DNA of 64,000 nt from Flavobacterium arcticum. Its GTDB lineage: Bacteria; Bacteroidota; Bacteroidia; Flavobacteriales; Flavobacteriaceae. Positions 33,177-38,590 of this stretch are shown piece by piece; positions within the stretch are counted from its first letter, which is position 1, and each line of letters starts with the position of its first letter. Where the stretch lies: the NCBI RefSeq assembly GCF_003344925.1, contig NZ_CP031188.1, forward strand, positions 2,906,357 through 2,970,356, in the 5' to 3' direction. The notes under the pieces are model-generated. The model was not told the origin of the DNA and made no database searches. It was given only the letters and a program-made list of their open reading frames with translations. Position numbers and translations under genes: made by a program.

Positions 33177-33713
33177 TTAAAAGAAATATCCTACTGATAG
33201 CTGAAATACTGCATTTTTAGAATCTACATCTTCATAAACATCTGTAAGTCCTATTGTATATCGTGCTTGTACAAAAAGCCCAGCTATAAGTTTCAGCTCT
33301 ACGCCACCTGCGGCTGCCATATCAAAACTTTTAGACTCTAACGCTTCCTCTGCTTCATCTATAAGAAATGAAAATTGAGGCCCTGCCATAAGGCTAAGTT
33401 TACTTGGCAATATATAATATTTTGCCATTACTGGTACTGATATATAATCTAAATTAATATCACGCACTGCACCTAGTTCATCTTTATATTCAGAGCCCTG
33501 AGAAGAAAACAAACCTTCTGCCTGTACCGAAAAAGTTGGTACAAGATTTAGCTCAAGCACTGCTCCTGCATGAAAACTAGTTATGCCATCACCATCAATA
33601 TCTCCATTAAGGTTCGCAAAATTAGCACCTCCTTTTACACCGAAGTTAACACCTTGTGCTTGCATAGCAAAGCTAGTTGCTATTACTGCTACTAAAACTA
33701 ATACTTTTTTCAT
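33177..33713 (-). CDS. Outer-membrane beta-barrel protein (PorT/OMP_b-brl_2 type), paralogue 1
   Basis: A 178-residue protein with a signal peptide ending MQAQ, then the family start GVNFGVKGGANFANLNGD, then alternating amphipathic strands (VQAEGLFSSQG, ISVPVMAKYYILPSKLSLMAGPQ) and a terminal aromatic strand SVGYFF. This is a small eight-strand-like porin family common in Bacteroidota. The function is unknown. It is clearly related to the next gene (starting 34262) and to the plus-strand gene at 34457. Confidence 0.88.
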   Translation of the reverse strand: MKKVLVLVAVIATSFAMQAQGVNFGVKGGANFANLNGDIDGDGITSFHAGAVLELNLVPTFSVQAEGLFSSQGSEYKDELGAVRDINLDYISVPVMAKYYILPSKLSLMAGPQFSFLIDEAEEALESKSFDMAAAGGVELKLIAGLFVQARYTIGLTDVYEDVDSKNAVFQLSVGYFF

Positions 33714-33734
33714 ATTTAAAAATTTAGTTGATTA

Positions 33735-34262
33735 CTAAAACATATAACATAATGACAATTGTAATACTGAGTTTTTAAGCTCATACTTGTCTGAAACTTT
33801 AGTTGAACCAGCATTATACCTTGCTTGTGCGGCAAAATTATCGGCAAAGAAAAACTCTACACCACCTGCAAAGCCTAAATCGTAAGTACTACTTTCAAAA
33901 GTAGTAAAACTATCCGACTCACCAATAAGCAATCCTATTTGTGGTCCTGCATGTATATTAAACGAATCTGTAAAATATAGTTTAAGCATTACAGGTAAAG
34001 TTACATAATTCAGCTTATAAGTTTCATCTTTTGTTTTTGCCCCTTGTACAGAGTATAAAAACTCAGGCTGAACAGATAAAGCATCCATCAAGTGCATCTC
34101 TGCAACCATTCCTACATGAAAACTAGTTAAAACATTAAAATCATCAGCATCATTACCATTAAAATTAGCAAAATTTAAACCAGCTTTTATTCCAAATGCT
34201 TGAGCTTTTACAGTAGTATAGCTACACATAAATACAAAAGCGACAAGTAATAGTTTTTTCAT
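33735..34262 (-). CDS. Outer-membrane beta-barrel protein, paralogue 2
   Basis: Start placed at the ATG 34262, directly before the signal peptide KKLLLVAFVFMCSY...KAQ, giving 175 residues; the longer frame has 16 non-signal residues. The mature part follows the same plan: FGIKAGLNFANFNGND, VQPEFLYSVQGAK, LPVMLKLYFTDSFNIHAGPQIGLL and a final LSLCYMF. It lies 21 bp before paralogue 1 on the same strand, so they are probably cotranscribed. Confidence 0.87.
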   Translation of the reverse strand: MKKLLLVAFVFMCSYTTVKAQAFGIKAGLNFANFNGNDADDFNVLTSFHVGMVAEMHLMDALSVQPEFLYSVQGAKTKDETYKLNYVTLPVMLKLYFTDSFNIHAGPQIGLLIGESDSFTTFESSTYDLGFAGGVEFFFADNFAAQARYNAGSTKVSDKYELKNSVLQLSLCYMF

Positions 34263-34419
34263 AAATGATAAGTTATTGTTATATAGCACAAAAATAGTAT
34301 AAATTACCATACAAAAAGAGTCGAAACTAGTACAGTATATTTATTTCGTCTAATGTTTACTTATTATTAAATTTAAAAAAATCACCAATACTAGGTATTT
34401 TTAATAAAATAAAAAAAAG

Positions 34420-34427
34420 TACATTTG
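34420..34427 (+). promoter_or_regulatory. Candidate -7 element for OMP paralogue 3
   Basis: TACATTTG, 29 bp before the ATG at 34457, in an A-rich stretch. No -33 TTG is seen. Confidence 0.45.
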
Positions 34428-34456
34428 TTATTCCTAACAACAAATTAATTTACAAA

Positions 34457-35020
34457 ATGAAAAAATTATTACTTTCGGCTGCGGCCGTAATGGCGTTTAG
34501 CTTTGCTACGCAAGCTCAAGAAGTTAAGTTTGGTGCAAAAGCAGGTTTAAACATTGCTGACTTTGGTGGTGATGCGGAAACTGATGGTTCAAGAACTGGA
34601 TTACACGTTGGTGCTATTGCAGAAATTAAATTAACTGAGACATTCTCTGTTCAGCCAGAACTTCTTTACTCTATGCAAGGTGCAAAAGGAAAAGAACTTG
34701 GAGTAGAATATGATCTTAAATTTGATTACATTAACATTCCTATTATGGCTAAATACTATCTTATGGAAGGTTTAAGTATCGAAGCAGGGCCACAAGTAGG
34801 TTTCCTTATGAGTGCTAAAGCAGAAGATGAAGACGTTAAAGATGGTTATAAAGGTGTTGACTTTGCTTTAAACGGAGGTGTTGCTTACGATTTACCAATG
34901 GGTGTTTTCTTCCAAGCAAGATATAGTGCTGGTCTTAACAATATTTATGATGGAGAAGGTAGCGACGATTACAAAACAACTAACAATGTAATTTCGCTTT
35001 CTGTTGGTTATAAATTCTAA
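34457..35020 (+). CDS. Outer-membrane beta-barrel protein, paralogue 3
   Basis: A 187-residue member of the same family, divergent from the other two. Signal peptide LSAAAVMAFSFATQAQ, then VKFGAKAGLNIADFGGD, VQPELLYSMQGAKGK, INIPIMAKYYLMEGLSIEAGPQVGFLM and the end SLSVGYKF. The codon usage looks richer in GCT and GGT than its paralogues, which may mean high expression. A terminator follows. Confidence 0.88.
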   Translation: MKKLLLSAAAVMAFSFATQAQEVKFGAKAGLNIADFGGDAETDGSRTGLHVGAIAEIKLTETFSVQPELLYSMQGAKGKELGVEYDLKFDYINIPIMAKYYLMEGLSIEAGPQVGFLMSAKAEDEDVKDGYKGVDFALNGGVAYDLPMGVFFQARYSAGLNNIYDGEGSDDYKTTNNVISLSVGYKF

Positions 35021-35457: not shown

Positions 35458-35497
35458 AATCCCGTAACCAACAGTATTTACTATTTGTTACGGGATT
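35458..35497 (-). terminator. Hairpin after the tRNA fragment, probably the original tRNA-Met terminator
   Basis: Eleven-bp arms (35458-35468 and 35487-35497) around an 18-base loop, with a minus-strand T run after them. It lies four bases beyond the left copy of the tRNA 3' half. This fits the tRNA's terminator from before the island inserted. Confidence 0.7.
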
Positions 35498-35500
35498 ACC

Positions 35501-35545
35501 TGTAGCGAAGACGGGAGTTGAACCCGTGACCTCAGGGTTATGAAT
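35501..35545 (-). repeat. attachment-site copy: 3' half of tRNA-Met (left end of island)
   Basis: These 45 bp are identical to 38515-38559. They hold the tRNA-Met sequence from the anticodon loop to the 3' end plus two bases. The 5' half is absent, so it is not a functional tRNA. An exact duplication that starts in the anticodon loop is typical of tyrosine-integrase attachment sites in tRNA genes. Confidence 0.88.
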
Positions 35546-35628
35546 TTTAAACCATCATAAACCAAAAAAATAAATCACTTAAAATCAACGAATTAAAAAG
35601 CAATGATTTTTAATTTTTACATAAAATA

Positions 35629-35646
35629 TGTTCAAAAAATTGTTCA
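35629..35646 (+). repeat. Left-end TGTTCA direct repeats, 12-bp spacing
   Basis: TGTTCA occurs at 35629-35634 and 35641-35646, exactly one 12-bp period apart. The same motif, orientation and spacing recur at the right end of the island. Arm-type binding sites for a recombinase are a reasonable explanation. Confidence 0.55.
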
Positions 35647-35730
35647 CTAAAATTTGCAAACTATTTTAAATCTATCTCTAAGTATCCATTCATATATTTA
35701 GAACTTGGAAAAATATGGGTTAATAATTTA

Positions 35731-36714
35731 TTACCCCTTTTTATGTGGACCTAAAAATCTATCTCCATTAAAATGTATCATATGGCTGGGATTATCAGCA
35801 ATCCATACTTCTGTCTCCCAAGCAATGTCAGCTGCATATTTCCTAAAAGTATTTTGATTCGGAAAAGCAGTTACATATACCAATCCTGCTTTACATTCTT
35901 TAAATGCTACTTCTAATTCTACCCAACGTTTTGGAGAAATCGGTCCATGACTAGTAACTGCTTCAATTAAAAATAGCCAATTATTTTTTTCATCATAAAC
36001 AATAACATCAGGTAATTTATCATGGGACATAGGAGAAACATTTAACGATTTTAAATACTCAGTTTCTAATAGCATATACTTCCCTTTTTCTTCTCTACTA
36101 CTAGCTGTGTCACCTATATATAATATATGACCATCTGACCCAATAAATCGTGAACAAAATTCATAAATAATATCAGCATGAAGTTTGTTATGCTCACCTG
36201 GAGATAATTCGAATACACGACCATCTGGTGTTTTGATAGGGATCATATGTATCTCTCTAGTACGTTTATACTGCTCTGTTAATTCAGTAACTGAATTTTT
36301 ATATTCGAGTATTTTTTTTTCCCAATTCCCTTTAGGATATTCGACTAAAATATTTATAACTTCTTTATTTAGAGAATAATTATTGTCTTTACTATTTGTA
36401 GCACGAGCTGGATTATCCCTATTCCTATCAATTATTCTAGCTTGCTCAAACTGATGTAAAGTTTGACGCCTTATTGTTTCTCTACTGTTTGGTTTATAAT
36501 CCATCCCATATTCATTTCGAATGAATTCCATAATCGTAACAGTGGGTAATAAAGGAGATTTTGCTTCAGCCCAATTATCATTTGGTTTGATATCTGCTAA
36601 TGCTAAGAACACCCATGCTGAACGATTATTACATTGAGCTTTTGGAAGTCCTAATTTTTCTAATAATTCTTTCGCAAGGGTTAGTTTTACAGTTTGTTCT
36701 TCAGTGAATTGCAT
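35731..36714 (-). CDS. Type II restriction endonuclease, BsuBI/PstI family
   Basis: A 327-residue protein resembling R.BsuBI and R.PstI, which cut CTGCAG. A winged-helix-like N-terminal domain (about 1-120, [15 protein letters not shown]) precedes the nuclease domain. The catalytic region is [20 protein letters not shown], with Asp236 and Glu251 in a PD-(D/E)XK-like arrangement, followed by [14 protein letters not shown]. The recognition sequence is inferred from the family. It starts 16 bp after the methyltransferase stop on the same strand, so the modification gene is transcribed first. No controller (C) protein gene is seen. Both genes look AT-richer than their neighbours and are inside the tRNA-flanked island. 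Confidence 0.9.
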
Positions 36715-36730
36715 AATTTATTGTTGGTGT

Positions 36731-38260
36731 TTAAAAATTAATTGCAAGTATAGAGTTTACAATTTCATCTAATTCTTTTTGGTTGTCAATTTGTGATTTT
36801 TCAATTTGACCACCTATTTGTTGGATTTGTTTCCTAGAAGGAAACATCATAACCCTAACTTCAGTGGCGTTAACTTGTGTATTCCCTGATATACACCTAA
36901 AATACTTATCCATAAAAGTTGAATTGAAAAGAGCTGATACCCCAAAGGCTTCTGTTTGAGAAAGAGTTTCTCCTATCAATCCAATATAATTAGTTTTATT
37001 TCCAAACCCAATATATTTATAATTCTTATCTGTTTGCAAATGAATACTTGCAACTAATCTTCGTTTTTCATCTTTAGATGAAAAACGCTTTAATATAACA
37101 TAGTTTGAATTAATGATAGTATGTTTTTCGTGATTTTTATTAAGAATAAAAGAAACATCTTTTTTATGATTACCATCCCAAGAGATTTTCATTGGGGTTA
37201 TATTATGAGGTCGGTATAAGGGAACTGAATTTGCCTCTACCTTGGGACTTATAATAAAATCCTTAGTTCTATGTTCAACAACTTTACCTGTCGATATGAA
37301 ATAGCCTGCTTTAGAGAAAGTGTTTGGCAGACTTTCTGCTATTTTTAGAATAGCTGCTTCTTGATCATTTTCTGGTATTCGAATTAGTTTTAAATTATTT
37401 GCTGTATAAATAATGGTACTCGACGAGTATTGTCTTTCTTCTGCAGATTCAATTTTTAAATCACAATCACTAGAACGTATTGTAATTTTATTAGATTGAT
37501 TTCTTTTAACGAAAGAACAAATAATATTTTCTTGTAAAACTTTATTCTCATCATTTTGAAAAATTTTATTCCTATGTCTAAATATATGAATTAAGCTTAA
37601 AGAAACTTTAGATAATAGAAAACCTCTAAGACCTTTAAAATATAATCCATTTGTAAAACTTCTTGGCGTAATAGTAATCAATTGTCCATTTACATTCATA
37701 CAATTTACAACCACAGCCATAAATGAAGCATAGATGTTTGGGTCACCATCATATAAATCAGCTACAGCACGTGCATATGGGGAAGTTTTCAAATTGTATT
37801 TAAAATAAGGAGGATTAATCACAGAAATGTCAAAAGGTTCAATGTCTTTATTTTTATCAGGTCTCGAAAGAATGAAATCTTCAGAAATAATTTCATACGA
37901 AAATTTTTTTCCGTTTTCTCTAAATTCGTTATAAATGCTATCCATTGATATTTTTATTTTGTCAAAAATATCTTTGTCAATTTCATATAAAACAGCATGA
38001 ACACTCTCACACCCTTTTTCTAGACAATATAGAGAAGCAGAGGCTGTTAATATACCTAAACCAGCCCCCGCATCTAATATTCTGATACATTTTTTATTAG
38101 GTATATTCACAAGAGATGCCATATATTTCGCGATAACCGATCCAGTAAAATATTGTCCAGTTGCTTTTCTTTCCTTTACCGATTTTGAGTACGAATAATC
38201 CTTTTGTAAAGATAAGATATTATTAATAGGAGATTCTTTTTCAATTTGTACTAAACCCAT
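36731..38260 (-). CDS. Type II DNA N6-adenine methyltransferase, BsuBI/PstI type
   Basis: A 509-residue gamma-class adenine methyltransferase. Motif X (KATGQYFTG, 32-40) precedes motif I (LDAGAGLG, 62-69), and motif IV is NPPY at 149-152. The long C-terminal half holds the target-recognition domain. Relatives methylate the adenine of CTGCAG and so protect the host from the partner endonuclease. At least six CTGCAG sites occur in this window, one at 37441 inside this gene, so active methylation would be needed if the nuclease works. The ATG at 38260 is supported by the early motif X spacing. Confidence 0.92.
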   Translation of the reverse strand: MGLVQIEKESPINNILSLQKDYSYSKSVKERKATGQYFTGSVIAKYMASLVNIPNKKCIRILDAGAGLGILTASASLYCLEKGCESVHAVLYEIDKDIFDKIKISMDSIYNEFRENGKKFSYEIISEDFILSRPDKNKDIEPFDISVINPPYFKYNLKTSPYARAVADLYDGDPNIYASFMAVVVNCMNVNGQLITITPRSFTNGLYFKGLRGFLLSKVSLSLIHIFRHRNKIFQNDENKVLQENIICSFVKRNQSNKITIRSSDCDLKIESAEERQYSSSTIIYTANNLKLIRIPENDQEAAILKIAESLPNTFSKAGYFISTGKVVEHRTKDFIISPKVEANSVPLYRPHNITPMKISWDGNHKKDVSFILNKNHEKHTIINSNYVILKRFSSKDEKRRLVASIHLQTDKNYKYIGFGNKTNYIGLIGETLSQTEAFGVSALFNSTFMDKYFRCISGNTQVNATEVRVMMFPSRKQIQQIGGQIEKSQIDNQKELDEIVNSILAINF

Positions 38261-38414
38261 AATCCCTTTTTTTTGGTAAAAATAAGTAACGTTTTAAAAA
38301 AATGATAATATATTCTAGAGTAAGAAATAAATGTAGTCTTAAAAAATCACTTAGAAGTATTATTATTATTATGATCTTTTAAGGTCAAAAAATTACTTTT
38401 TTTAGTATCAATTA

Positions 38415-38451
38415 TGTTCAAAAATATGTTCAAATTATAATAGATTGAACA
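38415..38451. repeat. Right-end TGTTCA repeats, two direct (12-bp spacing) plus one inverted
   Basis: TGTTCA occurs at 38415-38420 and 38427-38432, again 12 bp apart, and its reverse complement TGAACA at 38446-38451. The direct pair mirrors the left-end pair at 35629. They lie between the methyltransferase gene and the tRNA. Confidence 0.6.
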
Positions 38452-38466
38452 TATTTATTATAAAAA

Positions 38467-38496
38467 AAACGGTTTTAAATTGCTTTAAAACCGTTT
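38467..38496 (-). terminator. Present tRNA-Met terminator, carried by the island
   Basis: Thirteen-bp perfect arms (38467-38479, 38484-38496) around TTGC, with a T run on the minus strand. It lies 20 bp beyond the tRNA 3' end. Confidence 0.85.
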
Positions 38497-38514
38497 GTAT
38501 CAATAACTTACTTT

Positions 38515-38559
38515 TGTAGCGAAGACGGGAGTTGAACCCGTGACCTCAGGGTTATGAAT
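38515..38559 (-). repeat. Attachment-site copy inside the intact tRNA-Met (right end of island)
   Basis: Exact 45-bp match to 35501-35545, covering the anticodon loop to the tRNA 3' end and two further bases. Confidence 0.88.
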
Positions 38560-38590
38560 CCTGCGCTCTAACCAACTGAGCTACCTCGCC
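38517..38590 (-). tRNA. tRNA-Met (CAT), elongator type likely
   Basis: A 74-base cloverleaf on the minus strand. The acceptor stem GGCGAGG pairs with CTTCGCT (two G-T pairs). D-arm GCTC/GAGC, anticodon loop TTCATAA, and T-arm ACGGG/CCCGT with TTCAACT loop follow. The discriminator is A and CCA is not encoded. The anticodon stem has one A-C mismatch at its loop end. It lacks initiator-tRNA features such as an unpaired position 1, so elongator Met is the best call; the lysidine-modified Ile tRNA with the same anticodon is the alternative. It is the target of the restriction-modification island. Confidence 0.9.

Follow-up and report, generated by a model that had tools for sequence, protein, structure and literature searches.

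The subject of this analysis is a restriction-modification (R-M) cassette at positions 35,501 to 38,559 of a 64,000-nt stretch of the Flavobacterium arcticum genome (hereafter the window), where two genes lie between two copies of the 3' half of a tRNA-Met gene. We read it as a non-autonomous cassette with complete ends, inserted in the tRNA-Met 3' half by an integrase encoded elsewhere, and assign to this reading a probability of about 0.6. It rests on the duplication of the attachment (att) sequence, the two-gene content, the paired arm sites, the fact that no integrase was detected, the existence of integrases with the same arm word, and a set of comparable units in the genus. From these features the cassette would be mobile and may still be excisable, and the present R-M copy could also be a relic. 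The comparison covered 398 genomes of the genus, one genome per species, which are labelled by G-numbers, G000 being the genome that holds the window.

The R-M cassette, its arm sites and the integrases that share them

The repeats that bound the cassette, at 35501-35545 and 38515-38559, are identical at 45 of 45 positions and start 3,014 bp apart. The right-hand copy corresponds to the 3' half of tRNA-Met plus one base, and this gene (38516-38590, minus strand) is the sole tRNA that ARAGORN finds in the window. Even with three mismatches allowed, the 45-bp word occurs at only two places in the 2,970,356-bp genome. Two open reading frames (ORFs) of at least 80 aa lie between the repeats (38260-36731 and 36714-35731, both on the minus strand), and both are R-M genes, with no conjugation or mobilisation gene among them; for the endonuclease one solved relative was found, SdaI (2ixs, E 7e-57). 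Neither hmmsearch of the cassette's ORFs nor tblastn with 16 tyrosine-integrase queries at E<=1 returned a tyrosine integrase or a remnant of one. The GC content of the cassette (28.7%) equals the lowest value among 122 three-kb steps taken along the window, several steps overlapping the cassette itself. In the sense of the tRNA, its features are the following.

38516..38590, minus strand: tRNA-Met gene (CAT), the integration target, intact (ARAGORN)
38515..38559, minus strand: attachment repeat at the tRNA, left end in the tRNA sense, from anticodon loop to 3' end (45/45 identity to the distal copy)
38468..38497, minus strand: terminator-like hairpin straight after the tRNA, inside the left end of the cassette (read by eye; other units have a hairpin here too)
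36731..38260, minus strand: DNA methyltransferase, 509 aa, Eco57I-type domain, partner of the BsuBI/PstI-type endonuclease (PF07669, E 4.7e-13; PADLOC MTase_II, E 4.1e-110)
35731..36714, minus strand: BsuBI/PstI-family restriction endonuclease, 327 aa (PF06616, E 3.9e-61; PF17728, E 1.2e-47)
35501..35545, minus strand: distal attachment repeat, the displaced original tRNA 3' half (one of two places in the genome)
35458..35497, minus strand: terminator-like hairpin straight after the distal repeat (computed inverted repeat I15)

The 3' half that now completes tRNA-Met would have been supplied by the inserted unit, and the hairpin at 35458..35497 is presumably the original terminator of the tRNA. 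An earlier note on this DNA had claimed an exact 45-bp repeat of the tRNA-Met 3' half at a spacing of 3,014 bp, a content limited to a methyltransferase and an endonuclease of BsuBI/PstI type, the lack of an integrase, and TGTTCA repeats. The coordinates proved correct, Pfam and PADLOC agree with the note on the two ORFs, a hidden tyrosine integrase or remnant in the cassette is ruled out by hmmsearch and tblastn, and the TGTTCA repeats are real, being pairs of TGAACA 12 nt apart at both ends, as follows.

38446..38451, plus strand: inverted left arm, TGTTCA in the tRNA sense, 108 nt from the core start
38427..38432, minus strand: first left arm site (TGAACA), at 127 nt from the core start
38415..38420, minus strand: second left arm site (TGAACA), 12 nt beyond the first and 139 nt from the core start
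35641..35646, minus strand: first right arm site (TGAACA), 101 nt ahead of the distal core
35629..35634, minus strand: second right arm site (TGAACA), 89 nt ahead of the distal core

Both ends carry the pattern TGAACA-N6-TGAACA, with a pair spacing of 12 nt, and none of 20,000 dinucleotide shuffles gave a 6-mer pair of that spacing common to both ends. The pattern occurs four times in the whole genome, against zero for a reversed-pattern control: at both cassette ends, beside an integrase at a second CAT tRNA, and beside the degraded third copy of that tRNA. Each of the four lies within about 150 nt of a 3'-half copy of tRNA-Met or of the second CAT tRNA. Arms arising by chance are ruled out by the four-match genome count, the zero control and the shuffles. 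The left end of the cassette has a layout of one inverted and two direct arms in the TGAACA word; no inverted arm is present at the 13 other TGAACA left ends found beside a CAT tRNA, and in the cassette the left block shared by other units of the genus (described below) is absent.

The integrase in the same genome is full length (407 aa, C1:286220-287443) and starts 56 bp after the second CAT tRNA. Counted from a shared word, TCATAACC, the left arms stand at 125/137 nt in the R-M cassette and at 127/139 nt beside this integrase, and the distance from the arms to the tRNA end is 83 nt in the former versus 85 nt in the latter. In the tree it clusters with the integrase of G141, at the second CAT tRNA, and with that of G024. 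The 3' half of the second CAT tRNA is found in three copies over 78 kb, outside the window (G000:C1:286122, 313913 and 364317; L116-L118), with the full integrase at the first and orphan TGAACA arms at the degraded third, which together make up a composite island array. Ten proteins of this island and of the G024 island were compared with PHROGs, which gave an anti-restriction/ATPase match in each island and no structural phage family among the ten.

A scan of the 398 genomes for a tRNA end followed by a TGAACA pair gave 18 matches in 17 genomes. Fourteen are at a CAT tRNA: tRNA-Met accounts for 11, counting the R-M cassette, and the other CAT tRNA for three. The remaining four have no tRNA and look like chance. 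Seven of the 11 matches at tRNA-Met open into an integrase of 403-407 aa, and these seven form one clade (99/100); the other four are a match that runs off a contig end, two left ends (G187 and G390) and the R-M cassette itself. At the own-genome integrase and at the TGAACA integrases of tRNA-Met, the left arms overlap the beginning of the coding sequence, within its first codons. Between the R-M cassette and the tRNA-Met integrases, word and layout agree and the exact spacing is off by about 10 nt. In G187 (L137) and G390 (L138), where the arms are 82 nt from the tRNA end, tRNA-Met is followed by TGAACA arms and the stretches hold no integrase and no distal repeat; these are decayed left ends.

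Small units at tRNA-Met across the genus

The tRNA-Met 3'-half word is present in 376 of the 398 genomes, many of which have at least two same-strand copies, and 62 genomes of the latter kind were re-searched for units between the copies. G004 and G014 were already known and were not re-searched, and the census left out G108, G178 and G183 together with genomes whose single copies lie on opposite strands. Also set aside were G242 and G064, since their repeats are full tRNA genes: tRNA-Met is present as two consecutive complete genes in L061 (G242) and as three in L072 (G064), at distances of 0.4-2.4 kb, and a DnaJ-domain or an aldehyde dehydrogenase gene lies between them. The census yielded at least 20 units below 7 kb, the R-M cassette included. 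One of them, in G380, was counted but not analysed for ORFs, integrases or arms, since the contig starts within the first repeat. Six units have no complete tRNA in the stretch (G301, G370, G250, G140, G028 and G380); in G301 and G140 a larger island on the contig separates the unit from the complete tRNA.

None of the 19 analysed units below 7 kb, the R-M cassette included, has an intact integrase by profile or tblastn, and the unit of G164 retains a match to the first 30 integrase residues. Serine recombinases were looked for in the small units only through the Pfam scan, which took in 33 ORFs out of the 45 with 70 aa or more that the 18 units besides the R-M cassette contain. Among units above 10 kb an integrase was found in 11 of 16 analysed, by an island-integrase profile built from the same 11; five of these are confirmed by Pfam (PF00589), one just below the curated cut-off. 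Nine integrases of the main type in these larger units start 95-109 nt from the core. Tandem arrays at tRNA-Met occur in G301, G140, G416 and G256.

By inspection of the Pfam matches, conflict genes are frequent and not universal among the cargo. HipS/HipA-type genes are carried in G014 and G250, the G014 pair being a candidate HipBST by virtue of a short helix-turn-helix-like ORF that precedes it; Mrr in G236, and Mrr with Fic in G174; a TOTE primase-helicase with Fic in G100, and in G335 by 94.2% DNA identity to G100; TOTE with AbiEi/AbiEii in G366; and Fic proteins of 512-538 aa in G387, G140 and G315, that of G140 matching the PADLOC candidate PDC-S24 (E 2e-193). PADLOC gave matches for three of ten cassette proteins tried. 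The non-conflict cargo includes a TonB receptor (G301), a GH3 glycosidase (G370) and a TonB/two-component/YHYH set (G028), and the cargo of G384, G164, G104, G199 and G066 has no convincing family. That the cassette could belong to a repeating type, as the earlier note suggested, is supported by these other units of 1-7 kb with different genes between tRNA-Met 3'-half copies; of the cassettes with different genes that it expected, such units were found at the tRNA-Met copies, and none is integrase-free with TGTTCA arms at both ends.

The arms of islands and units at this site fall into two classes. Class 1 arms have a 12-nt spacing and the word TACACG, GAATAC, GTAAAC or TGAACA, and the island integrase reads away from the tRNA; class 2 arms have a 13-nt spacing and the word AGTGAGGA with its variants, in islands such as those of G365 and G203, the integrase reading towards the tRNA. 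The exact class-2 pair has 41 matches in 32 genomes against one control match in the 398 genomes, and in 28 of the 30 loci examined from these 41 matches a tRNA-Met core lies 101-136 nt from the pair, with none in the stretch for the other two. Of the 19 units below 7 kb, 12 have the class-2 word at their right end, and the interiors of all 19 hold it twice, both times in G066. Six units (G236, G301, G174, G370, G384 and G164) have neither the class-2 word nor TGAACA pairs, and therefore count as units and not as proof of an arm code.

An inverted class-2 word is found 94-97 nt from the core in nine units without a detected integrase, namely those of G387, G100, G335, G250, G315 and G140 and the 9-13 kb units of G416, G256 and G165. 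It is followed by a strict direct class-2 word in six of the nine, the rest having altered copies or none, and it is absent from all six left ends with a class-2 integrase (G365, G203, the larger island of G140, G152, G323 and G097). A left block ending in CAGACCTCA aligns in nine units (G100, G335, G366, G236, G250, G416, G256, G165 and G201), with related forms in G315 and G140. This block is conserved, non-coding, about 120-190 nt from the core, and seen only in units without a detected integrase; it may serve as an accessory protein site, a transfer origin or an RNA. The string at its end, as AGACTTCA, is also present in G347 and in the integrase-bearing G323, elsewhere before the arms. 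The integrase-free unit of G347 (L078, 9.2 kb) and the integrase-bearing left end of G323 (L176) share a short pre-arm stretch, and the two are possibly a cassette-helper pair.

Comparisons between units point to an exchange of units and of modules, as seen in ends that are shared without cargo, in partners that are swapped, and in a unit identity higher than that of the flank. The whole cassettes of G100 and G335, which are different species, are 94.2% identical and their upstream flanks 82.9%; between G066 and G028 the similarity is limited to the ends (91.6% over 669 bp); and the TOTE genes of L065 and L060 (G100 and G366) have 94.5% DNA identity, their partner being Fic in the one and AbiEi/AbiEii in the other, as if swapped. 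The earlier note had also proposed an empty tRNA-Met site, which was found for the units of some relatives and not for the flank of the R-M cassette. Within 0.2 kb after tRNA-Met, G006 and G008 hold the start of a sequence (82-88% identity) that begins 0.26-0.55 kb beyond the distal repeat in G100, G335, G236 and G004. By this alignment G006 and G008 look like empty sites, the filled genomes having some extra sequence beyond the repeat.

How the cassette may have reached tRNA-Met

The alternative left by the earlier note, a shrunken island or a cassette moved in trans, is supported as an either/or, the arm word matching integrase islands in the own and in related genomes. In the most likely course, another island would supply a tyrosine integrase that binds the arms and joins the cassette core to the tRNA-Met 3' half by recombination, restoring the gene. 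To spread, the cassette would depend on the presence of that integrase in the recipient or on joint excision with a neighbouring island, and it may travel to new cells with the helper island, either linked to it in a tandem array and excised with it, or as a circle. From what is generally known of type II systems, the two R-M genes would protect the host from phages and, by acting as an addiction pair, put a cost on losing the cassette. If such units are moved by helper integrases, single conflict modules can spread without mobility genes of their own, and the arm word would, if true, be a directly testable code pairing a cassette with its helper.

Several observations weigh against a helper-moved cassette. 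The integrase of the own genome is at a different tRNA with a differing core, and TGAGTA pairs, not TGAACA, precede the second copy of that core. In the clade of seven tRNA-Met integrases the arms are 93-95 nt from the tRNA end versus 83 nt in the R-M cassette. In G416 and G256, whose arrays start with a TGAACA-type integrase, the right ends that reach a tRNA-Met copy have TGAACA pairs at 91/79 nt versus 101/89 nt in the R-M cassette, 10 nt nearer the core; given these differences of about 10 nt, no known helper matches both the word and the exact spacing at tRNA-Met. No second integrase-free TGAACA-armed unit with both ends was seen in the 398 genomes. Ten of the 12 hosts of units below 7 kb with the class-2 word have no class-2 integrase (E<=1e-10) and one further host has only a 27% relative, so that a close class-2 integrase is missing in 11 of the 12; a resident helper is thus usually absent, and helpers are probably transient. 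The last 100 bp before the distal core of G100 and G335 are only 74% identical, which indicates that ends can be mosaic and that the unit did not move as one untouched piece. Finally, no empty site was found for the flank of the R-M cassette, its neighbouring outer-membrane genes being absent from the tRNA-Met stretches examined.

The best of the alternatives, which we nevertheless regard as unlikely, is decay in situ, in which a larger class-1 island in tRNA-Met lost its integrase and most of its genes by internal deletion and left an immobile relic. Decay of this kind is seen at tRNA-Met, in the 30-residue match of G164, the integrase pieces of G254 and G133 and the bare left ends of G187 and G390, and deletion is the origin given for a comparable class of streptococcal elements in the portions consulted of two reports (PMC7563491; PMC5704250). 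However, no integrase remnant is found at E<=1 although the first codons of the own-genome integrase and of the TGAACA integrases at tRNA-Met contain the left arms; an inverted arm is present in the left end of the R-M cassette, as it is in nine class-2 units without a detected integrase, and is missing from the 13 other TGAACA left ends beside a CAT tRNA; and the two repeat copies are still identical.

It is improbable that cargo is moved by homologous recombination through the conserved tRNA and its neighbours, the repeat being a mere landmark. The upstream flanks are conserved (82.9% between G100 and G335), ends and cargo combine differently from unit to unit (TOTE goes with Fic or with AbiE), the final 100 bp ahead of the distal core show mosaicism, and identity does not change sharply at the left boundary of G100 and G335, where it is 83-97% over the 600 bp preceding the core and 83-99% past it. 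The right boundary of this pair, by contrast, has 91-100% identity within the unit up to 100 bp short of the core, followed by 74%, by 54-81% over a further 600 bp, and by 80-90% beyond; of eight pairs tested, six show no alignment of the downstream flanks, two of them having just 278 bp to compare; and an exact att duplication with this arm geometry is unexpected under homologous recombination. An accident of assembly or a tandem tRNA duplication around unrelated R-M genes is scarcely credible: G242 and G064 do hold two or three full tRNA-Met genes in a row, but in the R-M cassette only the 3' half is repeated, within a single 2.97-Mb contig of a genome that is 99.93% complete, and both misassembly and tRNA duplication are contradicted by the equal architecture in other genomes of the genus.

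Returning to a cassette moved by a foreign integrase, a wider reading can be offered tentatively, with rather less than even confidence: the tRNA-Met of the genus may serve as a dock for non-autonomous cassettes with standardised ends, a stable class rather than the product of repeated decay, moved by helper integrases that share their word and trading conflict modules between species in the manner of integron cassettes, the R-M unit being the TGAACA-keyed member. The standard ends of such a class would be one inverted and two direct arms at the left and two direct arms at the right, with the shared left block in one subfamily.

Known systems and neighbouring features

The closest known counterpart is the cis-mobilizable element (CIME) of streptococci. 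In the portions consulted of two reports, CIMEs are islands derived from integrative conjugative or mobilizable elements, including some at the 3' end of tRNA-Lys, which are att-bounded, measure 1.2-13 kb in the cargo-carrying type, have no integrase or transfer genes, and stand in tandem with integrase-bearing elements, with which they are mobilised in cis by accretion (PMC7563491; PMC5704250). The R-M cassette resembles them in its attL and attR flanks and in having no integration, excision, conjugation or mobilisation genes, and tandem arrays are seen only in relatives (G301, G140, G416 and G256). As to derivation, the arm word matches an integrase-bearing class, whereas no remnant is found and the left-end layout is different. 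Several integrase-free units of the genus also differ in having left ends unseen at the six class-2 integrase ends, and their cargo often consists of conflict genes. In anatomy the R-M cassette fits the CIMEs, which are defined by descent and cis-mobilisation as well, and we limit the claim to a cassette that appears to work like a CIME.

The earlier note had called the cassette unusual; its kind is already represented by CIMEs in those portions of the two reports. New here are this site and taxon, left-end layouts seen so far only in integrase-free units, a proposed arm code to helpers, and frequent conflict cargo. No description of integrase-free tRNA-Met cassettes was found in the titles and abstract openings searched, a body of literature in which subscription journals were mostly outside scope.

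Like the tDNA islands of Islander, the R-M cassette has its ends marked by an intact tRNA and a displaced cognate 3' fragment in direct orientation; unlike them, it has no integrase gene. In the portion of its description consulted, Islander demands an integrase gene inside the island (PMC4383910), and a small integrase-free class is thereby filtered out by design. As a main method for surveying tRNA islands needs an integrase, small cargo units can be overlooked.

The proteins of the cassette are ordinary for the BsuBI/PstI/SdaI group of type II systems, with both endonuclease domains and an adjacent type II methyltransferase, and their genetic setting alone is notable. Ends kept while the enzyme comes from elsewhere are a feature of elements like the miniature inverted-repeat transposable elements (MITEs), which are gene-free and depend on a transposase, and of cargo-only tycheposons. 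Unlike the R-M cassette, MITEs use transposases and carry no genes.

Relatives of the endonuclease are present in 12 of the 398 genomes, G000 included, ten of them with E<1e-60, and at the 11 loci outside G000 the flanks fetched hold no tRNA, tRNA-Met core word or TGAACA pair; for the methyltransferase, nine loci with relatives were gathered from other phyla. Beyond the distal repeat, three related outer-membrane barrel genes adjoin it in the window (33177-35020). Among 21 relatives with both on one contig, the outer-membrane genes are 9-15 kb off on the other side of tRNA-Met in 20 (by eye), and on the island side only in G024, which indicates that the region was rearranged in the own lineage and in G024.

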